A stretch of 58,050 nt of DNA from a bacterium (lineage in GTDB: Bacteria > B130-G9). The position numbers were made by a program, and so were the translations under genes. The notes below the pieces were generated by a model. The model did not search any database and was not told where the DNA came from. It worked only from the letters and a program-made list of their open reading frames with translations. Location: assembly GCA_035527515.1 (NCBI GenBank), contig DATLAJ010000164.1, positions 1 through 58,050 of the forward strand, read 5' to 3'. Positions 33,367-44,358 of the stretch are shown piece after piece (within the stretch, counting starts at the first letter, position 1; each line of letters begins with the position of its first letter).

Positions 33367-33489
33367 TCGCCCCCGTCACCAGCAATGCGAGGGGCTGGCC
33401 CAAATTCGCCTCGAAAATCATTTGTGAGATTGCCAGCCCCGTGCCCACGCAGTTGCGTTCGGTATGCAGATTCGGATAATCTATCGGGC

Positions 33490-35709
33490 ATGAGATTCCG
33501 GCAAGCGCGGCACTCGGACAATGAATCTGACATAGAGCACTTGGGCGAGAGGGGCGTTCCTACGCCGATCAATGGTCGAGGTGCAATAGGCCGTGTAGGG
33601 CTGCCCGGCACACTGCTGTGTCTGGCACTAGTGGCCGCGGCCGGACTTGTGCCGTTCCTTCCGACGTTCCACCTATTCTTCAGCCACACGGATGACTTCC
33701 TCTTCTTCTATCCGCTTCCATTCTCCGAGTATCCTAGGATTTTCATCCCGCACTGGAGCTTCTACAGGCCGCTGCCTGAGATATTCTGGCTGCTGGAATA
33801 CCGCTTCCTGAACGTCGATCCGTTCGGGTATCGTGTCGTTGCCTGGTCTCTCCACCTTCTGTGCCTTCTTACTGTTTTCTGGCTGGGATTTGTGCTCTCC
33901 AGAAGCCGCTTCGTCGCGACCGGCGCTGCGCTGATAGTCTCACAGCAGCCAGCGCTCCATGACACAGTCTGCCGGATTGGTGGTGGGATTGACATCATGT
34001 TCACCATCCCTTACCTCCTGTGCCTCATTGCGTATTTCCGCTACCGGCGGGCGCGAAGCACCACAGCCCTGGTCGCATCGCTCGTCCTAGCTACCATTTC
34101 GCTCTTATCCAAGGAGATGGCAATCACACTTCCGCTTGTCCTTCTTTTGATCGAGCTTGTTTTCTTTTCAGGTCGCGGTCGCAAGGAAACTGTCAGAAGG
34201 TGCGCCTCGGCCATTCGCCGCACCAGCCCATTCTTCCTACTCACCGCCACTCACGTCATCCTGTTCGTTCTGCGGCCATTCTGGCCAAAGCCAAGCCAGA
34301 TCGGCCTTCTATCGAACTTCCGGTCAACCGCTCTTCATGTCTTGAGCAACACAGAGCTGGTCTTCAGCCACCTTTTTGCCCCACTTTGGCTCGTCGTGCC
34401 AACCATTCTTCTTGGCATCTATATCATGCTGCGAGCTCGCACGACCGGCGGCGTAGGTTGGGAGGACTCTGCACGGCTGCGACGGCTAATGCTCTTTGCG
34501 CTTGGATTCACGGCGCTCTCGCCGATCCCGGTAGTGCCCCTGCCCGTGATGATCGAGCCGCATTCGTTCTATCTTCCAGTAATCGCCTCGAGCCTCGTGA
34601 CAATGGCCTCGCTGGCCACCATCCGCGCTCGCCTTGCCCGAAGTCGCAAGGCTGCCGTGGCGCTGCCAGCCGCAATCTTGTGCGCAGCGCTCCTGATCCT
34701 CAACGCCGATCTTCGAGGCGAGCTGGCTGAGTTTGTGAAAACGAATGAGGTCAAAGGATCGATTCCGATGTCGGTCGCCCGTAATATCGATCCCAAGACC
34801 GCTAATGGCCAGATATCGCTCGTCTTCATGCCCGGAGACAAGGTCAGGAGCGTCGGCACGGATGTCATCTACTTCTGGGTTGCAGGGACACGGTTCATGT
34901 TGCACGACTCGATCGAGGTGATGTGGGTTCACGAGTACCTGACCAGGGCGCTTGTGATGGGCCGACCAGCCCCCGAACCACAGTTTTGGGAATGCAAGGA
35001 TTCTGAGGCGCGCGCGAGTCCGGAGTTGACCGAACACATAAGGCGGCTGTTGAAGTACCGGGCCAGCCTGGGAACAGCTCTTGGGACACCCCCTCCTCTC
35101 GATCGCAGCAAGGCCGGCCTATCGTTGACCGGGCCTGTGCCTGAAAACACACTCGACTGGGATTTCTCTGAGGGCCTGGACGGCTGGATAGTTAGGCGCG
35201 GCAGCGCCAAACTGGCCAACGGATACTTGGATATATCATCAGATGACGGGCTGTTCGTGCTTGAAAGTCCCAGAATCTCGATCGATCCATGGTATTTCGC
35301 CACGGTCAACGTGGTCGCTAAGTGCGACCACAAGCCCGACGATTCTGTGTGGCGAATCCACTACCGTTCCAACGGCGACGATGGCTGGCCAAAGTTCAAG
35401 AATCGAATCGCTCCCATAAACCGGGATGGCAACTTCAACGCCAATCTTGCCCTCATGCTGGTCCAGTTCTACTGGGGCTACGGCCGAAACATCGCTGGGT
35501 TGCGCCTCGTCATCGAGGGTCTCTCCCCGGGCACTGCCCTGCAGCGCATTTCTCTCTCTCCTGCCCTGGCCCCACTGTCGATTAGCGGCTTCAGAACGAT
35601 CTCACCTGGCTTCAGCATGAAAGGGCCGCCGCGCCTCGATAACTTCGTGGACTGGTCTCGGCCTTGCGACGTGAAGTCGGCCAAATCAAAAGCTTCAGTG
35701 GGCAAGTAA
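33490..35709 (+). CDS. Multi-pass membrane protein with C-terminal soluble domain
   Basis: A 739-residue protein with about 9-11 predicted membrane helices in residues 35-410, for example LPGTLLCLALVAAAGLVPFL, VVAWSLHLLCLLTVFWLGFV and AALPAAILCAALLILN-like stretches. An early loop has HTDDFLFFYPLPF and the nearby HWSFYRPLPEIFWLLEYRFL, reminiscent of GT-C glycosyltransferases, whose catalytic Asp lies in the first periplasmic loop. Residues about 430-739 are soluble, with a beta-sandwich-like region (LDWDFSEGLDGWIVRRGSAK) that resembles carbohydrate-binding folds. ATG 33490 is chosen because the sequence before it has poor character; the frame is open to 33385. Involvement in surface glycan assembly is inferred. 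Confidence 0.65.
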   Translation: MRFRQARHSDNESDIEHLGERGVPTPINGRGAIGRVGLPGTLLCLALVAAAGLVPFLPTFHLFFSHTDDFLFFYPLPFSEYPRIFIPHWSFYRPLPEIFWLLEYRFLNVDPFGYRVVAWSLHLLCLLTVFWLGFVLSRSRFVATGAALIVSQQPALHDTVCRIGGGIDIMFTIPYLLCLIAYFRYRRARSTTALVASLVLATISLLSKEMAITLPLVLLLIELVFFSGRGRKETVRRCASAIRRTSPFFLLTATHVILFVLRPFWPKPSQIGLLSNFRSTALHVLSNTELVFSHLFAPLWLVVPTILLGIYIMLRARTTGGVGWEDSARLRRLMLFALGFTALSPIPVVPLPVMIEPHSFYLPVIASSLVTMASLATIRARLARSRKAAVALPAAILCAALLILNADLRGELAEFVKTNEVKGSIPMSVARNIDPKTANGQISLVFMPGDKVRSVGTDVIYFWVAGTRFMLHDSIEVMWVHEYLTRALVMGRPAPEPQFWECKDSEARASPELTEHIRRLLKYRASLGTALGTPPPLDRSKAGLSLTGPVPENTLDWDFSEGLDGWIVRRGSAKLANGYLDISSDDGLFVLESPRISIDPWYFATVNVVAKCDHKPDDSVWRIHYRSNGDDGWPKFKNRIAPINRDGNFNANLALMLVQFYWGYGRNIAGLRLVIEGLSPGTALQRISLSPALAPLSISGFRTISPGFSMKGPPRLDNFVDWSRPCDVKSAKSKASVGK

Positions 35710-35941: not shown

Positions 35942-37261
35942 ATGCTTTTGGAAGAGGTTGAGCTCATCTTCGTTTTGAGCGTCCTTCTTCTCTCCGGCTA
36001 CGCACTGGGCATTTTGGCCAAGAGAGCCAGGCTTCCCGAGATCACGGGTTACATCGCGGCCGGGATAGTCTTAAAACAGGCGATCTTCTGGCTCGGGCTG
36101 ATGTCGGACATCAAGTTCACGAAGCTCTTCTCACGCGACCTCATTCCGATTAACCATCTAGCACTTGCACTCATAGCGTTTGCTGTGTGCAGGGGTCTGC
36201 GGCTCGAGCAGATGAAACAGCTGGGCAAGGGCATTATCTGCATAGCTTCGGTTCAGGCCATTGTTACGTTCGTCGCAGTTACGATTGGCGTTGCAGTCAT
36301 CGGTTCTTACGCCAATCTCGGCGGCGCGCCCGCAGGCAGTTTTATGAATGTGCTGCCGCTTGCGATCGTCTTTGGTGGTATCGCGACTGCGACCGCACCG
36401 GCGGCAACAGTCGCCGTGATAAGGGAGTTAAGGGCCAAGGGCCCCTTCACTACGACGCTGCTGGCGACGGTTGCTATGGACGATGCGATCGCGCTTTTGA
36501 TATTCGCTTTTGGCATTACGATAGCTGAAAGTCTGCTCACGATGGGCGTTGCCACCGCTGGTTATGGGGCGTCTCGGCTATGGCTTAGACCGCTGGTGGA
36601 AGTGGTTGGGTCTTTGTGTCTTGGGCTTCTCGTCGGCATAGCTCACCATTTCGTCGGGGCAAAGGTAGTGGGAAAGGTCGAGATGATGACAGCATCACTT
36701 GGCATAATCACGTTCACCAGCGGCCTCTCCATGCTTCTCGGGCTGTCACCACTGCTCACTATCATGGCCGCCGGTTTTGTCCTGGCCAACATCTCCAGAC
36801 GTAATCAGCGCATCTTCGCGTCCATCGAGGGCGTTCAGGGCCCTGTATTCGTGATCTTCTTCACGCTAGCGGGGACACAGCTTCACCTTGAGAACTTGTT
36901 CACCTGTGGGATAATCGGGGCAAGTTTTCTTGTCTTCAGGCTTTTGGGTAAGGTGGGTGGCGCCCGTTTGGGTGCATCCATAGCACATGTGAAGGGACCG
37001 GCGAGGCGCTATTTGGGGCTTGCGCTGCTTCCGCAGGCTGGTGTTGCGATCGGCCTGATGCTGGTGGCTCAGGAGAACCCTTACTTGTTTGCTTATAGGT
37101 ATGTGCTTGTCGATGTTGTCCTCGCATCAGTTGCTTTGAACGAGCTTATCGGGCCGCCCTTCGCTGCCTACGCCTTGAGGCGCTCTGGCGAGGCGGGTCT
37201 CTCGAGGAAAACAGAGACCTCGAAAACTCTGGGCGCATCAGAGGAAAGATATGATTCCTGA
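35942..37261 (+). CDS. CPA2-type cation/proton antiporter (first of a pair)
   Basis: A 439-residue integral membrane protein of the Na+/H+ exchanger family, about 12 helices. LLLSGYALGILAKRARLPEI and TGYIAAGIVLKQ form the first core helix. TAPAATVAVIRELRAKGPFT and LLATVAMDDAIALLIFAFGI hold the ion site, whose paired aspartates usually mark electrogenic antiporters. GLALLPQAGVAIGLMLVAQ is near the C-terminus. There is no C-terminal TrkA-N or USP domain. ATG 35942 is preferred to 35861 because the first helix then starts the protein. It overlaps the next antiporter gene by 11 bases. The transported cation (Na+, K+) cannot be read from sequence. Confidence 0.88.
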   Translation: MLLEEVELIFVLSVLLLSGYALGILAKRARLPEITGYIAAGIVLKQAIFWLGLMSDIKFTKLFSRDLIPINHLALALIAFAVCRGLRLEQMKQLGKGIICIASVQAIVTFVAVTIGVAVIGSYANLGGAPAGSFMNVLPLAIVFGGIATATAPAATVAVIRELRAKGPFTTTLLATVAMDDAIALLIFAFGITIAESLLTMGVATAGYGASRLWLRPLVEVVGSLCLGLLVGIAHHFVGAKVVGKVEMMTASLGIITFTSGLSMLLGLSPLLTIMAAGFVLANISRRNQRIFASIEGVQGPVFVIFFTLAGTQLHLENLFTCGIIGASFLVFRLLGKVGGARLGASIAHVKGPARRYLGLALLPQAGVAIGLMLVAQENPYLFAYRYVLVDVVLASVALNELIGPPFAAYALRRSGEAGLSRKTETSKTLGASEERYDS

Positions 37262-38540
37262 GGGAGCAGACCTAGTATTCCTTGTTGGACTGATCCTCAC
37301 CGTAGCCTTCATTGGCGGGCGGCTCTCAAATCGCGTTCGGCTGCCTGAGGTTACTGGCTACATTTTTGTGGGGATTCTTCTCAAGCTGTTCCTGGACCTG
37401 CTCGGCCTCATCAAACACCAGAGGCTTGAACTGCTGCTTGGCGAGCATCTCGGACAGGTCCCACAGATCACACTTGCTCTCATCGCGTTCATCATCGGCG
37501 GCAGTTTGCCTATTGGCCGGCTCAAGCGGCTTGGGCGAGGCATCGCCTGGATCGGCATGATGGAGGGTTTCGGAGCTTTCTTCTGTGTTACCTTGCTGAC
37601 ATTCGTAGTAGCGCCTCATGTGTGGGCCGTGCCCCCGATCGAGGGAATCTCGCCAATCAAGTCTGTGTTTGCATTTGCCCTGCTGTTGGGAGCGCTCTCG
37701 GCTGCCACAGCGCCCGCCGCAACTGTGGCCGTCATAAGAGAGCTCAGGGCGCGAGGCGACGTTACGACAACGCTTCTGGGGGTGGTCGGCTTCGACGACG
37801 CTGTGGCGCTATTCATCTTCACTTTCGCGAGCGCAACTGCCTCAGGTCTGCTGACCATTGGGGCACAAGTGGGCAGCAGTCTTTACGAAACAGTGGCTTT
37901 GCCGCTGATCGAGATCGTTGGCGCCGCCCTGCTGGGTATAGGGATGGGGTTTGTGGCTCACTTCGGCTCTCGCTTCTTCAGGACCAAGCGCGAGACTACC
38001 GTTGGCGCCTTGGGATTCGTGCTGCTTTCTGGCGGGATAGCAATTGGTCTTGGCGTATCGCCGCTCTTCACAAACATGTTCGTGGGATTCACTTTGATAA
38101 ATCTCTCCCCGCGGAACATCCGAATCTTCCGGTCGCTCGGCGATATCGACGCGCCGATCTATGCGATGTTTTTCACTCTGGCAGGGACACATCTTGAGTT
38201 CAGCAATCTGGGCATGCTTGGCGCGCTGGGAGGGATCTACATCGTTGCGAGGTTTGCTGGTAAGCTGTTTGGTGTGAGAATCGGTGCCAGGCTGGGGCGA
38301 GCCCCACCAACGGTCAGAAAGTATCTCGGGTTTGGCCTCCTGCCGCAAGCGGGCGTGGCAATTGGACTTGTGTTGGTAGCTAAAGCCAATCCGGCCTTTG
38401 CATCTTTTGCGCCTATGCTGACGAACATCATACTCGGGACGGTGGCGGTCAACGAGCTGGTTGGACCACCGTGCACCGCCTATGCCTTGAGGAAAGCTGG
38501 TGAGGTGGCGGGGGAAAAGCCCCCGGCAAACAGCTCTTGA
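37251..38540 (+). CDS. CPA2-type cation/proton antiporter (second of a pair)
   Basis: A 429-residue paralogue of the preceding antiporter with the same landmarks: GGRLSNRVRLPEVTGYIFVG, TAPAATVAVIRELRARGDVT, LLGVVGFDDAVALFIFTFAS with the paired aspartates, NMFVGFTLINLSPRNIRIF and GLLPQAGVAIGLVLVAKANP. The two are similar throughout and clearly arose by tandem duplication. Overlap with the upstream gene suggests coupled translation and possibly a heteromeric transporter. It is followed after 121 bases by an EIIA-type protein and a PII-like protein, suggesting regulation by phosphorylation state or small ligands. Confidence 0.88.
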   Translation: MIPEGADLVFLVGLILTVAFIGGRLSNRVRLPEVTGYIFVGILLKLFLDLLGLIKHQRLELLLGEHLGQVPQITLALIAFIIGGSLPIGRLKRLGRGIAWIGMMEGFGAFFCVTLLTFVVAPHVWAVPPIEGISPIKSVFAFALLLGALSAATAPAATVAVIRELRARGDVTTTLLGVVGFDDAVALFIFTFASATASGLLTIGAQVGSSLYETVALPLIEIVGAALLGIGMGFVAHFGSRFFRTKRETTVGALGFVLLSGGIAIGLGVSPLFTNMFVGFTLINLSPRNIRIFRSLGDIDAPIYAMFFTLAGTHLEFSNLGMLGALGGIYIVARFAGKLFGVRIGARLGRAPPTVRKYLGFGLLPQAGVAIGLVLVAKANPAFASFAPMLTNIILGTVAVNELVGPPCTAYALRKAGEVAGEKPPANSS

Positions 38541-38661
38541 AAGCAAGATGATTCTCGTGTTTGATAACGCTCAGGCAATCGCAGTGAACTAACTTCGAGG
38601 CTTTGATTGACTGGCACGCACTCCCAGTTGACGGTATTTAAGCTCTTAGAAGAGGTAGAAC

Positions 38662-39132
38662 ATGGTTGAACTGACATCCTTCATGAAGGAGAAGCTGATC
38701 TGCCTTGACCTCAAGTCCACCACGAAGGCAGATGTGTTTGACGAGATGTCAGATATCATCTCGCAATCCGAATCCGTCCCGGACCGCGACATGTTTCTGG
38801 CCGCCCTGAAGGAGAGGGAGGCAGTAATGACAACGAGCCTCGGCGACGGGGTGGGGATTCCACACGCCAGGTCTGATTCGATCAAGAAGCTCGTAATCGC
38901 GGTCGGCCTGTCTCGCAAGGGTATAGACTTCGGGGCGAAGGATGATCCGCTGGTTCGCATAGTGTTCATGTTCGGCATTCCGGCCAAGGAGACCAAGCTA
39001 TACATCCAGGTGCTTGCCAAGATCTCACGGTGCGCTCGAAAGAAGGCCAACCGGGATAGACTTTTGGCAGCCGGGAGCAAGGACGAGGTTTACGCTATTT
39101 TCGAGGAATTTGACGCTTTGACACGGGGATGA
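38662..39132 (+). CDS. PTS EIIA (PtsN-like) regulatory protein
   Basis: A 156-residue cytoplasmic protein of the mannitol/fructose EIIA fold. FDEMSDIISQSESVPDRDMF, KEREAVMTTSLGDGVGIPHA and the following RSDS give the phosphorylation site, His68. FGIPAKETKLYIQVLAKISR and LLAAGSKDEVYAIFEEFD complete the domain. No sugar permease domain is attached or adjacent, so it is more likely a regulator like EIIA-Ntr than a sugar importer. EIIA-Ntr is known to control potassium transport in some bacteria; here the neighbours are two antiporters. AGAAGAGG precedes the ATG. It overlaps the frame of the next gene, whose chosen start is 36 bases downstream. Confidence 0.88.
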   Translation: MVELTSFMKEKLICLDLKSTTKADVFDEMSDIISQSESVPDRDMFLAALKEREAVMTTSLGDGVGIPHARSDSIKKLVIAVGLSRKGIDFGAKDDPLVRIVFMFGIPAKETKLYIQVLAKISRCARKKANRDRLLAAGSKDEVYAIFEEFDALTRG

Positions 39133-39167
39133 GGGTGTCTGCCCTTTTGAAACCCAGAGGGAATGTC

Positions 39168-39500
39168 ATGTATTTAGTGATCGTGGTTCTGTTCCGAGAA
39201 GATCAGCTGGACGACATGTTGTCAGTGTTTGCCGAGCTAGGACTGGAGAACGCTGTTGTGGTCGAGGCGACGCGGATGCAGGAGGTGCTCGCCTTTGACG
39301 TGCCGATATTCGCAGGTCTTGTCGGCGGTTCCCTCGGAGGCAAGAGGTACATCAAGATGGTGATGGCCGCATCTGATGATGAGCACATCGGCACGAGAAT
39401 TAGCAGTGTAGCTAAAGATCTGGACATAGATTTTTCGAATAGGGAAGTAGGAATGGTCCTAACCCTGCCGATTAGGGAGTATGTATCGGCGGAGGATTAA
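39168..39500 (+). CDS. PII-like regulatory protein
   Basis: A 110-residue protein of alpha/beta character, MYLVIVVLFREDQLDDMLSV then FAELGLENAVVVEATRMQEV, resembling PII-like (GlnB-superfamily) proteins that sit beside transporters and bind nucleotides. The central GLVGGSLGGKRYIKMVMAAS may be the glycine-rich loop region. It lacks the classical uridylylation Tyr loop. ATG 39168 is chosen because GAGGG lies 6 bases upstream; the frame is open to 39129, overlapping the EIIA gene. Control of the adjacent antiporters is inferred from position. The family assignment is from general pattern, not strong motifs. Confidence 0.6.
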   Translation: MYLVIVVLFREDQLDDMLSVFAELGLENAVVVEATRMQEVLAFDVPIFAGLVGGSLGGKRYIKMVMAASDDEHIGTRISSVAKDLDIDFSNREVGMVLTLPIREYVSAED

Positions 39501-39539
39501 CAACCCAGAGTAAATGAGAGAAGGCGATGATCAGGTGAG

Positions 39540-42500
39540 ATGACCGCGCTCGAGCTTGGCTTTCTGATCTCATTTGTTACTTGGGTGTTTCCTCTTCTCG
39601 CTCTGGGGCTCTTCTCTTACGGTCTAGCTTTACACTCCAAGAGAAGCACTGGCGCTGTTCATTTCTTCTTCGCTGCGTTCGCAGCATTCTGCCGCAACCT
39701 CATGTTTCTGATCGACTACGGGACGCGCTCCCCGCTCGGCGGTCACGAGATTAGGCAGCTTTTCGACCTGATCCTGCTGCTGGCGATGGCTCTTGCCGCT
39801 ATCGGTTCGCTGTCTTTCCTCTCGGCCCAAGGGATAAAGATTAGTCAGTCGCGGCGCCGGGTCATGATCACAGCATCGTTTGCGGCCTGGGCCATACCGG
39901 CCATGTCGGGGATGCTCGGCTCTTTCACAGCGATCGGGGTCCTGCATCACGCCGTTTACAACTCCGCCGTGGTGGGCCTTATGTGGGTATATCTCGTCCT
40001 GGGCGCGGTGGCTGCCCGCCACTTCGGCAAGAGCGGCCAAAAGGCTCAGAAGCTCGCCATCTCAGCCGCCGTGCTGATTCTCATCAATCCTATCCTGCGC
40101 ATGTATTTCTTCCATAACATGATAGTGCCAAAAGCAGCGCTATGGTGGTGGCTGGATGCTGTCCTGCTCGGTGCGAGCACATCCTTGGCCGGAATGGTTG
40201 TCATATTCATTGCCAAGAGCGCTGGGGCACGGGGACTGAGCTCGCTTGTGAGAAAACAGTTCAGGGCCAACAGAATCATGTCAAAGCGCACCTTCGCAGT
40301 CATTGGGGCCGTTGTCGTCATCGCCGTGCTGATGTCGCTCCTTCTGATCCAGAGGTCCGGCGAGGAGCTTACCTGTGCAGTTGCCAAGCAACTTCAAAGC
40401 AGGCAGCTTTCGCATATTCTCGGCGTCGGTTCCGAGCTTCGAGCAGCAAGCAAGACGCTTGCCTCGTGCCTCGCCGGGTTGAGCGAGCTATGTAGCAGAG
40501 GGTTGCAGCACTGGGACGATGAGGTCTTCAATAATCTTGTGGCGATGGCGAACGACCAGCTGCCATGCAGCCTGCTGATAACCGACCCGGAAGGACGAAT
40601 ACTCAAGACCGACGCCCAGCAAGGAACGGTGCGGCAACTGCTCGGCTATCTTGCAGCAGTCCCGTTTGAGAAGACCGCCGCTGGCAAGGAGGTGCGCGTT
40701 GCAGGCCCCGTCTTCATTGGCCCAAGAGGTTCCCCCAGAAGCTTCTTCGTGTTTCACGCCCCGGTCTTTTCTCGCGGCGCTTTAGACCAAGCGATTCTCT
40801 ATAACGCTTATCTCTTCGCCCCAGCTCAGGTCGTGGCCAGCACCTTTCTGCGAGGCGCCGGCTCTGAGTTCGGCCACACGATTCTCGCTGACGACGGGGG
40901 AAAAGTTCTCCTCTCCACCGAGGTCAACTCAACTGCCCACTCGATACCCCATCGTGTCCCGCACTCCCCGACTGAGAGAACAAAGCACTTGCTTTCGAGA
41001 ATGAGGGCGCATAGCCCAGGCTCAACCATTCTCAAGTCGAGGGATTCCTCGGAGCTCGCCTCATACTGCTCGGTTCGTCTTGGTGACAGCAGCTACTACC
41101 TCGTGGCAGCGGCCCCATGGAACGTCGTCCTGTCCTCCATTGACGAGGCGTACCTCAAGCAGTACCAGCTTCTGGGCTTCATAATGGCCCTCGTTCTCTT
41201 CGGCAGCGGGACCGCGGTCGAGGTCTCGACACAGTGGGGGAAGGCACTTGAGCGCATGATGCTGGTCAAGACTGAGCAGTTGCACCACGAGAAGGTCAAC
41301 CTTGAGCAGACGATGCGCAGTATCGGCAACCCGCTTCTCGCCGTGGATGAGGAGCTCAACATCACCTACGCCAATCCCGAGTTCGTGTCAGCCTTTGGCT
41401 CGCCTGACGGGAAGAAGTGCTATCAATTGGTGTTCGGTCGGAGCGAGCCCTGCGAGGACTGTCTCGCCAAAAAGGCCATCGAATCCGACCACGTCTGCCA
41501 TGCGATTAGGCAGCGCGAGGTTGATGGGCAGCCCCGGAGCTTCGACATAACCGCGAGCCCCAAGAGGGACATTGAGGGGAACGTGCTGGAGTCGATCCTT
41601 CTGTTGAATGACATCACAGAAAGAAGCACGCTACAACGCGAGATAAAAGAATCGGAGGAGAAATATAAGCGTCTGGTTGAGGCCTCACCAGACATGATCT
41701 GTATCGTCCAATCCGGTCGGCTGATCTACGCCAACCAGGTCTTGACGCGGAAGCTGGGATTTGCCCCACGCGAGCTCTTTTCTAGCGATTTCGACCTCGT
41801 CTCGAGGGTTGTGCATCCTGATTGGCGCACAAAGGCCATAGAATCTCTCGAGCGCCTTCAGAAGGAGGGAGCTGCGTTGGAGACGGAGCTTCTGCTGATA
41901 ACCGCGAGCGGAAAAGAGCTGCAGGTCCTCTTCAAGGGCGTTCCGATAACCTACAGCGGCCAGGATGCAGTCGAGTTGATCCTGGTCGATATTACGAAGC
42001 TCAACGAGCTTCATAAGCAGCTGCTCCAAGCTGAGCGACTCGCCTCGCTGGGCGAGCTAACCGCCTCGATAGCACATGAGCTCAACAACAAACTGGCCCC
42101 GATACTTGCCTACTCCGAGATGCTTCAGGACAGGGTCTCTGACGATGCTGTCTCCAAGAGGCTGATGTTCATTGAGAAATGTGCGATTGGTGCGAAATCG
42201 GTCGTTGAGTCGTTACTTGCGTTTCCGAGAACCGGTGCCTCTGTCAGGAAGTATGTCAACCTGAACAGGATACTCGAGGAGACCGTCCAGCTGGTCAAGT
42301 ATCGGCTGGATGCCTTCAATATAGACTTGATATGGGAACTTGATAAGGGCCTGCCCCGGACAATGGTTGACCGTAAACAGATGGAGCAGGTCTTTCTCAA
42401 CATCATAAACAACGCCTACCAGGCGATGGAGGATAGGGGAGGCACGCTCTACATTCAGTCGTCAGTCGAGGGCGACAACATCGTGTTCCAGATCACGGAC

Positions 42501-43136
42501 ACCGGCCCTGGAATCCCTGAGGCGAACTTGACGCGCATATTCGAGCCGTTTTTCACGACAAAACCTGTTGGGAAGGGCACTGGACTAGGCCTGCCTTGCT
42601 CCTACGGTATAGTCAAGACGCACAATGGGGACCTGCGCTGCGCCAGCAAGGTCTCAAGGGGGACGACCTTCACAATAGAGATGCCCATAGTTGAGGGTGA
42701 GCCCGAAGAGGAAGCTCCCAAGGGGGCGCAGATTGTCTCTCAAGAGGTGCAGCGGGGTGCCAGTATCCTCGTTGTCGATGACGAGGAAATACTCAGGGGG
42801 ATGGTGCGCGAGATACTCGCCCCTGACCACACAGTGTTTCTGGCCGGCAACGGCCGAGAAGCGATAGACATCCTAAAACGAGAACCAGTAGATATGATTA
42901 TCACCGACCTGCGCATGCCCGGACTCGACGGCTTTGCGCTGTTCAAATGGGTCAAGGAGAACATACCCGGACTTGAGAAGCGGATGCTCTTCACGACCGG
43001 CGACATCTACGAGCCCAAAACACGCGAGTTCATCAGGCAGGTGGAGTTCAGGTGCATCTCAAAACCCTTCTCGGTAAGTGCTTTTGTCCAGCAGGTCAGC
43101 TCCCTACTTGTTGAACAGCCCGCCGCCCCGGTCTGA
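39540..43136 (+). CDS. Large hybrid sensor histidine kinase
   Basis: A 1198-residue membrane kinase. Residues 1-230 hold about seven membrane helices. Another helix near 255 precedes an extracytoplasmic sensor region (about 275-530, containing SLLITDPEGRILKTD), followed by a further helix near 550. Two PAS domains follow (about 590-710 and 715-825). The first has a Cys-rich insert, KKCYQLVFGRSEPCEDCLAK. The HisKA helix SIAHELNNKLAP has the phospho-acceptor His846; the ATPase has INNAYQAMED, DTGPGIPE and GKGTGLGLPCSYGIVKTHNG. A C-terminal receiver domain has the acceptor Asp1123 in IITDLRMPG. It lies 39 bases after the PII-like gene, suggesting the same transcript. No separate response regulator is adjacent. 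Confidence 0.92.
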   Translation: MTALELGFLISFVTWVFPLLALGLFSYGLALHSKRSTGAVHFFFAAFAAFCRNLMFLIDYGTRSPLGGHEIRQLFDLILLLAMALAAIGSLSFLSAQGIKISQSRRRVMITASFAAWAIPAMSGMLGSFTAIGVLHHAVYNSAVVGLMWVYLVLGAVAARHFGKSGQKAQKLAISAAVLILINPILRMYFFHNMIVPKAALWWWLDAVLLGASTSLAGMVVIFIAKSAGARGLSSLVRKQFRANRIMSKRTFAVIGAVVVIAVLMSLLLIQRSGEELTCAVAKQLQSRQLSHILGVGSELRAASKTLASCLAGLSELCSRGLQHWDDEVFNNLVAMANDQLPCSLLITDPEGRILKTDAQQGTVRQLLGYLAAVPFEKTAAGKEVRVAGPVFIGPRGSPRSFFVFHAPVFSRGALDQAILYNAYLFAPAQVVASTFLRGAGSEFGHTILADDGGKVLLSTEVNSTAHSIPHRVPHSPTERTKHLLSRMRAHSPGSTILKSRDSSELASYCSVRLGDSSYYLVAAAPWNVVLSSIDEAYLKQYQLLGFIMALVLFGSGTAVEVSTQWGKALERMMLVKTEQLHHEKVNLEQTMRSIGNPLLAVDEELNITYANPEFVSAFGSPDGKKCYQLVFGRSEPCEDCLAKKAIESDHVCHAIRQREVDGQPRSFDITASPKRDIEGNVLESILLLNDITERSTLQREIKESEEKYKRLVEASPDMICIVQSGRLIYANQVLTRKLGFAPRELFSSDFDLVSRVVHPDWRTKAIESLERLQKEGAALETELLLITASGKELQVLFKGVPITYSGQDAVELILVDITKLNELHKQLLQAERLASLGELTASIAHELNNKLAPILAYSEMLQDRVSDDAVSKRLMFIEKCAIGAKSVVESLLAFPRTGASVRKYVNLNRILEETVQLVKYRLDAFNIDLIWELDKGLPRTMVDRKQMEQVFLNIINNAYQAMEDRGGTLYIQSSVEGDNIVFQITDTGPGIPEANLTRIFEPFFTTKPVGKGTGLGLPCSYGIVKTHNGDLRCASKVSRGTTFTIEMPIVEGEPEEEAPKGAQIVSQEVQRGASILVVDDEEILRGMVREILAPDHTVFLAGNGREAIDILKREPVDMIITDLRMPGLDGFALFKWVKENIPGLEKRMLFTTGDIYEPKTREFIRQVEFRCISKPFSVSAFVQQVSSLLVEQPAAPV

Positions 43137-43146
43137 TAATCGGCGC

Positions 43147-43734
43147 CTACAGGTCCTCTGCAATCCTCACAGTATGGTCCTTGTAAAGCTGTGAGACCGA
43201 GTTGTAGGCCAACAGGTAACGGTTCATATCGCTGCCAGACAACAACTCATCGCCCTGCATACAGCCCACAAACTCGCTGTGCTCAAGAGACTTGAGCTCC
43301 TCATACTTACGCTCAGCGAGCTTCATGTGCATCAGAAGATACCCCACTGAATCCCTAGCACGCTGATAGTAAGATTCACGATAGCGAGCGATCTCCTCAG
43401 CGCTCTCCTTGTAAAAATTCGTGATAAAATTCTGCTGCTTCTCAATTAGCCCACCATGTTTGTGAGCAAAATAGCCCGCTCGAGACTCGTCCAACAATAT
43501 GTCAAGGTGCTCGAGAAAATCCAACTCGTCCTGAGATACCTCCGCAAAGAACATCAGCGACCGCTCTGAGTTGGCGAGAGCCCGCTTCAGGTAGTATATG
43601 ACGTTGACCGGATTCTCCTCCATGCTCGCGAAAATCGCGTCAAGATCACCAGTCTCAAGAAGGGCCCGAGTCCGGTCGTAGTACGCGTCGCGCCGCCCAA
43701 ACAGGGGGGCTTTGTTATTGTCAATCTCTACCAC
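43147..43734 (-). CDS. Helical protein of unknown family
   Basis: A 195-residue, strongly charged, probably all-helical cytoplasmic protein. VNVIYYLKRALANSERSLMF, VSQDELDFLEHLDILLDESR and EEIARYRESYYQRARDSVGY suggest long amphipathic helices. There is no signal peptide or membrane segment. GTG 43734 is chosen because AAGGTG lies 7 bases before it; the frame is open to ATG 43791, which has no ribosome site. It converges with the histidine kinase across 10 bases. I do not recognise the family; a chaperone-like or adaptor fold is possible but unproven. Confidence 0.6.
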   Translation of the reverse strand: MVEIDNNKAPLFGRRDAYYDRTRALLETGDLDAIFASMEENPVNVIYYLKRALANSERSLMFFAEVSQDELDFLEHLDILLDESRAGYFAHKHGGLIEKQQNFITNFYKESAEEIARYRESYYQRARDSVGYLLMHMKLAERKYEELKSLEHSEFVGCMQGDELLSGSDMNRYLLAYNSVSQLYKDHTVRIAEDL

Positions 43735-44358
43735 GCTATCACCTTGCCTAAATCCAAGTAATGCTCGGCGCGTAATACCATGCCCCACCATGGACGCCCA
43801 GAAACGTGGGCTCAGGCCACAAGGTCAAGCTGCCGCCCAGTCGTCGAGGCCTCCAGGAACTGTCCTGAGCGGCCGTAGATTAGGCACGCAAACTCCGCCT
43901 GAAGACAGCGGCCGGAAGTGCTATATCCATTCTGGTAGGACTGGGAGTCTGCCAAAAACTGATCCTCTCGCTTCGGCTCAATCAGGGCGCACGAGCTCTG
44001 AGAGCTCCGCGAAGCGATGGCTCCCGTATTCTCATTCTCTTGCAGCCCGAGACAGATGGCAGCGTTGTGCCCGCCAAACCGAGCCACAAGCCCCATACCC
44101 ATCGCTGGGAGCCTCTGCTCGTCTCGTAGGTAGCCAATCGCCCCCCTAAGCTGGTAGCTGGGGGTTGCGCTCGCCGGAACCATTGTCAAATCCCCGCCTA
44201 TCGCCTCCGTAACTCGAAAATCACCGGTTCAGAAGCTCCCAACAGACCCTACTGCACCCCAATACTAACGGTCAGAACTGGCGCCATCAGGAATTGCCGC
44301 AGCCCACCGCAGCGAGCTGTCAGACACCCGTAGAGAGCGAGTCCCCCAAGACGCACAA
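43735..44358. other. Gene-poor region between helical protein and bactofilin genes
   Basis: About 620 bases whose only notable content is a degraded ORF at 43812-44189 with ketosynthase-like segments. No repeat family found elsewhere in the window occurs here. Confidence 0.4.
43812..44189 (-). pseudogene. Possible ketoacyl synthase C-terminal remnant
   Basis: A 125-codon frame (TTG 44189). Its first 55 residues recall the end of FabF-type 3-oxoacyl-ACP synthases: TMVPASATPSYQLRGAIGYL sits where VPVSSTKSMTGHLLGAAGA would be, and VARFGGHNAAICLGL where NSFGFGGHNASLVF would be. The segment between them is about 40-50 residues too short, the catalytic part is absent, and a TGA stop precedes it in the same frame. 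The remaining 70 residues match nothing I know. It could be a decayed gene or chance resemblance. Confidence 0.3.

Follow-up and report, generated by a model that had tools for sequence, protein, structure and literature searches.

Here we describe a five-gene group in a 58,050-nucleotide window (positions 1 to 58,050 of contig DATLAJ010000164.1, assembly GCA_035527515.1) from a bacterium of the lineage B130-G9. As the sequence-only reading of this DNA had noted, the genes lie in one rightward run and encode two antiporters, A and B, a stand-alone EIIA protein of the phosphotransferase system (PTS), a small PII-like protein and a hybrid histidine kinase. A regulated ion-transport module composed of antiporter, EIIA and PII-like protein is well supported by comparative genomics: the three are linked across many families, EIIA and PII-like domains are fused in some of them, and the regulators recur at the unrelated Mrp antiporters. 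We think it likely that the module exchanges monovalent cations for protons under metabolic gating, with EIIA and the PII-like protein acting as detachable cytoplasmic gates of antiporters that have no regulatory tail of their own.

Nearly all bacteria rely on antiporters to set their pH, Na+ and K+, and we know of no account of how most of these proteins are switched; EIIA- and PII-type regulators report metabolic status in other bacteria. The recurrence of the grouping suggests an as yet undescribed switch by which metabolism turns ion exchange on or off. EIIA-Ntr control of antiporters and PII control of transporters are both known separately; what appears new is their combination. The sequence-only reading knew of no described system of exactly this composition, and we likewise found no description of antiporter, EIIA and PII-like protein together in the open-access literature searched. 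If our interpretation is correct, regulators that read the PTS and a ligand would provide a direct link from metabolism to ion exchange, and PTS and PII signalling would meet at the ion gradient.

Antiporter, EIIA and PII-like genes are linked across bacterial families

The sequence-only reading had named scattering of the genes in close relatives as grounds for refutation, and the opposite is seen: the order antiporter A, antiporter B, EIIA, PII-like protein, kinase is the same in all three family relatives, one from the same genus and two from the same family (three genera in all). On a wider scale, a profile of the PII-like protein matched in 67 of 386 genomes, and we examined 75 PII-like loci from 48 family-level groups; as the loci were chosen by this profile match, the fractions given here describe PII-like genes and not antiporters at large. 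A same-strand CPA antiporter lies within 2.5 kb of the PII-like gene at 50 of the 75 loci (33 families), compared with a chance expectation of about 0.2% per locus, and EIIA is adjacent or fused to the PII-like protein at 48 (30 families). At least one of these partners is near the PII-like gene at 61 loci (39 families) and both are at 37 (23 families). At 12 loci from seven families the EIIA and PII-like domains form a single protein.

The order of the genes varies. With A for an antiporter, E for EIIA and P for the PII-like protein, the arrangements include A-P, A-EP, E-A-P, E-P-A-A and A-A-E-P, and because they differ among loci the linkage appears to have been rebuilt or shuffled rather than just inherited. 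The linked antiporters fall into three distant clades of the antiporter tree, which the PII-like tree does not simply mirror, and in most families a single antiporter stands alongside the regulators. In addition, four loci from four families place the PII-like gene, three times with EIIA, at genes encoding Mrp, an unrelated Na+/H+ antiporter; the Mrp components are MnhE and MrpF at L047, MnhE at L140 and L141, and MnhB with a Proton_antipo_M protein at L152. Judged by these neighbours, the common denominator of the loci is cation/proton exchange and not one transporter family.

The antiporters are CPA2-like and tail-less

Antiporter A (439 residues; 35942–37261, + strand) and antiporter B (429 residues; 37251–38540, + strand) are paralogues of 41% identity whose genes overlap by 11 bp. 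Both match PF00999 (82 bits for A and 90 bits for B, cut-off 26.2) and they are the only proteins in their own genome, a 3.47-Mb draft, to do so. The ion-binding Asp-Asp pair is complete in both, with ATATAPAATVAV and MDDA in antiporter A and SAATAPAATVAV and FDDA in antiporter B. A profile of the antiporter family was required to find solved homologues, as a phmmer search of the PDB with antiporter B alone gave nothing useful; its best match was NapA from Thermus thermophilus (4bwz, E 3.5e-16), which shares the Asp-Asp motif, ahead of NhaP. An NCBIfam scan of the antiporters returned a weak CPA1 match. The CPA2-type assignment made for the overlapping paralogues in the sequence-only reading has support from the Asp-Asp pair and from NapA as the best solved match. 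We know of no EIIA or PII-like regulator linked to NapA.

Our tail analysis revealed no cytoplasmic regulatory tail in A or B. The tail after the membrane domain does not exceed 51 residues in 66 antiporters encoded near PII-like genes. Among 25 antiporters not near such a gene, nine carry tails of 145–178 residues, and in three of these nine (L070, L071 and L072) the tail is an EIIA domain.

In the antiporter tree A and B form separate clades, each with 100% support, across all four family genomes, and the two clades are sisters (95% support). As sisters, they derive from one duplication that predates the diversification of the family, with both copies retained since. An origin of the window pair from the same ancient pair seen elsewhere was rejected, since A and B group most closely with each other. 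That second, older class of tandem pairs is of a different kind: its PII-proximal member has mostly lost the Asp-Asp pair (families f144, f242, f182, f105 and f189), and the partner has Lys-Asp, sometimes Gly-Asp or Ser-Asp, in its place. The clade of antiporter-like proteins without the pair comprises L156:6969-8300, L158:4993-6357, L162:6868-8061, L165:5264-6475, L166:5215-6480 and L170:6849-8060, each next to a PII-like gene and to an antiporter with Lys-Asp or Gly/Ser-Asp; a Pfam scan of those from L156, L165, L166 and L170 gave no matches. Such a protein could be the inactive partner in a heterodimeric antiporter, and the older pair hints at hetero-oligomers more strongly than the window pair does.

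The sequence-only reading had suggested a hetero-oligomer of the antiporters, and these data bear on whether A and B are themselves an obligate heterodimer, which would be the functional unit acted on by the regulators and would make the duplication the main novelty, an idea compatible with the gating proposed here. The maintenance of both fully supported clades in four genomes, the overlap of their genes and the ancient pairs with a member lacking the Asp-Asp pair all favour it. However, most families manage with a single antiporter beside the regulators, and with complete pairs in both A and B each could act as a homodimer, or the two could serve different conditions; we therefore regard the obligate heterodimer as a tentative proposal with somewhat less than an even chance of being right.

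The EIIA protein retains its phospho-acceptor, and the genome encodes EI and HPr

The EIIA protein (156 residues; 38662–39132, + strand) is a stand-alone PTS_EIIA_2 domain (PF00359, 117 bits) whose best PDB match is EIIA-Ntr (2a0j). As the sequence-only reading had noticed, it contains a phospho-acceptor, His68, which lies in the motif GIPHAR (codon 38863–38865). The phospho-His is kept in all readable linked EIIAs except that of L170, which has Asn; the L173 EIIA is cut off before the site and stands outside this count. The score against the PtsN equivalog model TIGR01419 is 68.8 bits, below the cut-off of 138.7. In place of the second active-site His found in EIIA-Ntr, the window protein has Tyr114 (aligned to the His of 2a0j); its family relatives share this Tyr, and many other linked EIIAs have either Tyr or Phe at the position. 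This substitution suggests that the EIIA may accept and hold a phosphate rather than pass it onward.

HPr and enzyme I (EI) are both encoded in the same genome, where they adjoin apparent mannose-type EII genes; at 587 residues the EI has the length of an ordinary EI. The only other PTS_EIIA_2 domain of the genome forms the C-terminal tail of an amino-acid permease (L098:5494-7407, contig C157), and for this reason the domain type seems to serve transporter control in this organism. L104 and L105 encode similarly sized proteins that also end in an EIIA. Amino-acid uptake may be under PTS phosphorylation control too.

The hybrid kinase is linked in this form in the window family only

The last gene of the run encodes the hybrid histidine kinase (1198 residues; 39540–43136, + strand), composed of an N-terminal membrane and sensor region, two PAS domains, HisKA (with His846), HATPase_c and a receiver domain. 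Comparison of the sensor region with solved structures gave no meaningful match. Kinases of 54–86% identity occupy the same position in the three family relatives. Linkage of a kinase in comparable form was not seen outside the window family, and elsewhere it is rare and different; the kinase was consequently rejected as part of the module core and is treated here as a probable lineage-specific addition. Thus, of the five-gene regulated module put forward in the sequence-only reading, the antiporter/EIIA/PII-like core holds up through linkage, fusions and the Mrp loci, and the kinase is linked to it in this form in the window family only.

In Escherichia coli EIIA-Ntr acts on the kinase KdpD (PMC13104625), which offers one possible parallel for the role of the window kinase. 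The same precedent, together with the position of the kinase gene directly 3' of the PII-like gene, would fit a different arrangement, in which EIIA and the PII-like protein are not transporter gates and instead relay ion status to targets elsewhere, the kinase for example, with the antiporters perhaps acting as the reporters of that status. We consider this unlikely, as other families link EIIA, PII-like protein and antiporter without a kinase in this way, and the fusions in our set pair EIIA with an antiporter (L070–L072) or with the PII-like protein and never with a kinase.

The small protein is a PII-like protein distinct from GlnB

The PII-like protein (110 residues; 39168–39500, + strand) taken alone has no significant Pfam match, PF00543 included. 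Among its homologues, however, seven of 12 match PF00543 (best 5.7e-9), and a profile built from 62 homologues matches solved PII proteins with E 2.4e-5 (2gw8). An AlphaFold2 monomer model based on the 62-homologue alignment has a mean pLDDT (the model's confidence score) of 89, and all 50 Foldseek matches listed are PII or PII-like proteins (probability 1.00), with a fold match at E 3e-5. Based on the homologues, the profile and the predicted fold, we assign the small protein a PII fold, in agreement with the sequence-only reading. For the deeper model, the listed match ranked best by fold is PotN from Lentilactobacillus hilgardii (7o4x), a PII-like protein with 13% identity over the alignment; we know of no EIIA partner of PotN.

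GlnB itself was rejected as the identity of the protein. The PII signatures of the nucleotide-binding B-loop, the uridylylation site and the C-loop (RTGE) are found in none of the 75 family members, and five carriers (G069, G076, G077, G030 and G088) have canonical P-II genes at other loci; no such gene was detected in G000, G001 and G003. The missing signatures and the coexisting canonical genes indicate a branch separate from GlnB. A motif of the P-I-F type is present in the T-loop region of 62 of the 75 members and reads VPIF in the window protein.

A diadenylate cyclase is encoded in 23 of the 25 PII-like-positive genomes tested, this one included, and was not detected in the other two, G206 and G332, both of which have the tandem module. 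For the latter reason cyclic di-AMP (c-di-AMP), while possible as a ligand here, is unlikely to be a universal one. As c-di-AMP controls K+ homeostasis, a c-di-AMP receptor of the PstA/DarA kind would connect cation/proton exchange with this K+ second messenger, and the widespread cyclase favours this identity for the PII-like protein. We nevertheless find it improbable: diadenylate cyclase is common anyway, two carriers of the tandem module have no detectable cyclase, and the sequence and fold are nearer to GlnB, GlnK and PotN than to PstA, which the profile search lists only at E 0.24 and which is missing among the 50 fold matches listed.

Two unusual contexts of the PII-like gene were also observed. 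In family f14 (L044, L160 and L163) it follows a small gene and not an antiporter; the small gene encodes a HAD-type phosphatase in both loci scanned (L044 and L163), and a different role is possible there. In a single case (L176:269-2387) the PII-like gene lies a few hundred bases upstream of the genes for ATP synthase subunits I and a.

A model for metabolic gating and its relation to known systems

In the mechanism that we infer, the two tail-less CPA2-like antiporters would be the transport parts, probably moving Na+ or K+ out and H+ in, and EIIA and the PII-like protein would replace the C-terminal regulatory domain found on many other antiporters. His68 of EIIA would be phosphorylated by the EI and HPr of the genome, so that its state tracks phosphoenolpyruvate and PTS flux. 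One phospho-state would bind the antiporter and either silence or release it, by analogy with E. coli, where PtsN, when unphosphorylated, binds the K+/H+ antiporter YcgO and inhibits it (PMC11808508). The PII-like protein would respond to another signal, for which an adenine nucleotide or other small ligand is the probable candidate, and could bind the cytoplasmic face of the antiporter through its T-loop region with the VPIF motif. Jointly the two would restrict ion exchange, which would spend the proton gradient and shift pH and K+/Na+, to times of suitable energy and carbon status. In the window lineage the kinase was added, and it probably couples the genes or the state of the module to an outside cue.

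The E. coli PtsN-YcgO (CvrA) system resembles this model in that the phospho-state of a stand-alone EIIA-Ntr controls a monovalent cation/proton antiporter (PMC11808508). YcgO, however, is a CPA1 antiporter that carries a tail (RCK and CorC) of its own, whereas the window antiporters are tail-less and CPA2-like and sit with EIIA and PII-like genes. The ycgO gene is not known to share an operon with ptsN, and we know of no PII-like partner of YcgO. PII proteins gate transporters in the GlnK-AmtB and SbtB-SbtA pairs (PMC10710835), and here the likeness is a small PII-fold protein encoded beside a transporter, with the T-loop region as contact site, presumably also in the window protein. In contrast to the CPA antiporters, which are dimers, AmtB and SbtA are trimers that transport ammonium and bicarbonate, and the window protein does not carry the canonical PII nucleotide and uridylylation signatures. 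In LacS-type permeases, too, phosphorylation of an EIIA domain by the PTS determines transporter activity (PMC10710835), but theirs is a Glc-family EIIA fused to a sugar transporter, whereas the module EIIA is of the fructose/Ntr family, separate or antiporter-fused, and is joined by a PII-like domain.

Several observations weigh against gating by EIIA and the PII-like protein. Genomic linkage indicates functional association and not mechanism; the antiporters are of a dimeric class; and the nucleotide-binding and uridylylation signatures of PII are missing throughout the PII-like family. Genome G077 has the module, yet no EI or HPr was detected in it (the genome is 91% complete). At 14 of the 75 PII-like loci there is neither a CPA antiporter nor an EIIA nearby (one of these is at Mrp genes), so that some PII-like members probably act otherwise or in trans. 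Finally, PII control is apparently restricted to trimeric transporters according to a 2023 review (PMC10710835), and if our model is correct the antiporters would be a new target class for the PII superfamily beyond that limit. The broader proposal that a distinct PII-fold family and an EIIA switch form a general, interchangeable gate for unrelated antiporter superfamilies (CPA and Mrp) stands in our view at even chances. An inherited neighbourhood without functional meaning, by which synteny alone could preserve the order within the window family, is very hard to reconcile with linkage that spans 33 families, shuffled orders, distant antiporter clades, the Mrp complex and trees that are not simple mirrors.

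Gene boundaries and flanking genes

Genes were called locus by locus; the host genome is a draft of 183 contigs. The reading frame of antiporter A is open from 35861, and the start at 35942 gives 439 residues, as in the same-genus orthologue (L039). The frame of the PII-like gene is open from 39129, a start that would overlap the EIIA gene by 4 bp. As the PII-like proteins of relatives begin at the Met at 39168, this overlap is doubtful and was rejected as a case of translational coupling; the start is probably 39168, leaving a 35-bp gap after EIIA. The intergenic gaps of the five-gene run contain no terminator-like site. The flanking genes encode a 774-residue membrane protein upstream (33385–35709) and a 214-residue protein downstream (43147–43791, − strand), neither with a Pfam or NCBIfam match; since the downstream gene is convergent, the run ends after the kinase.

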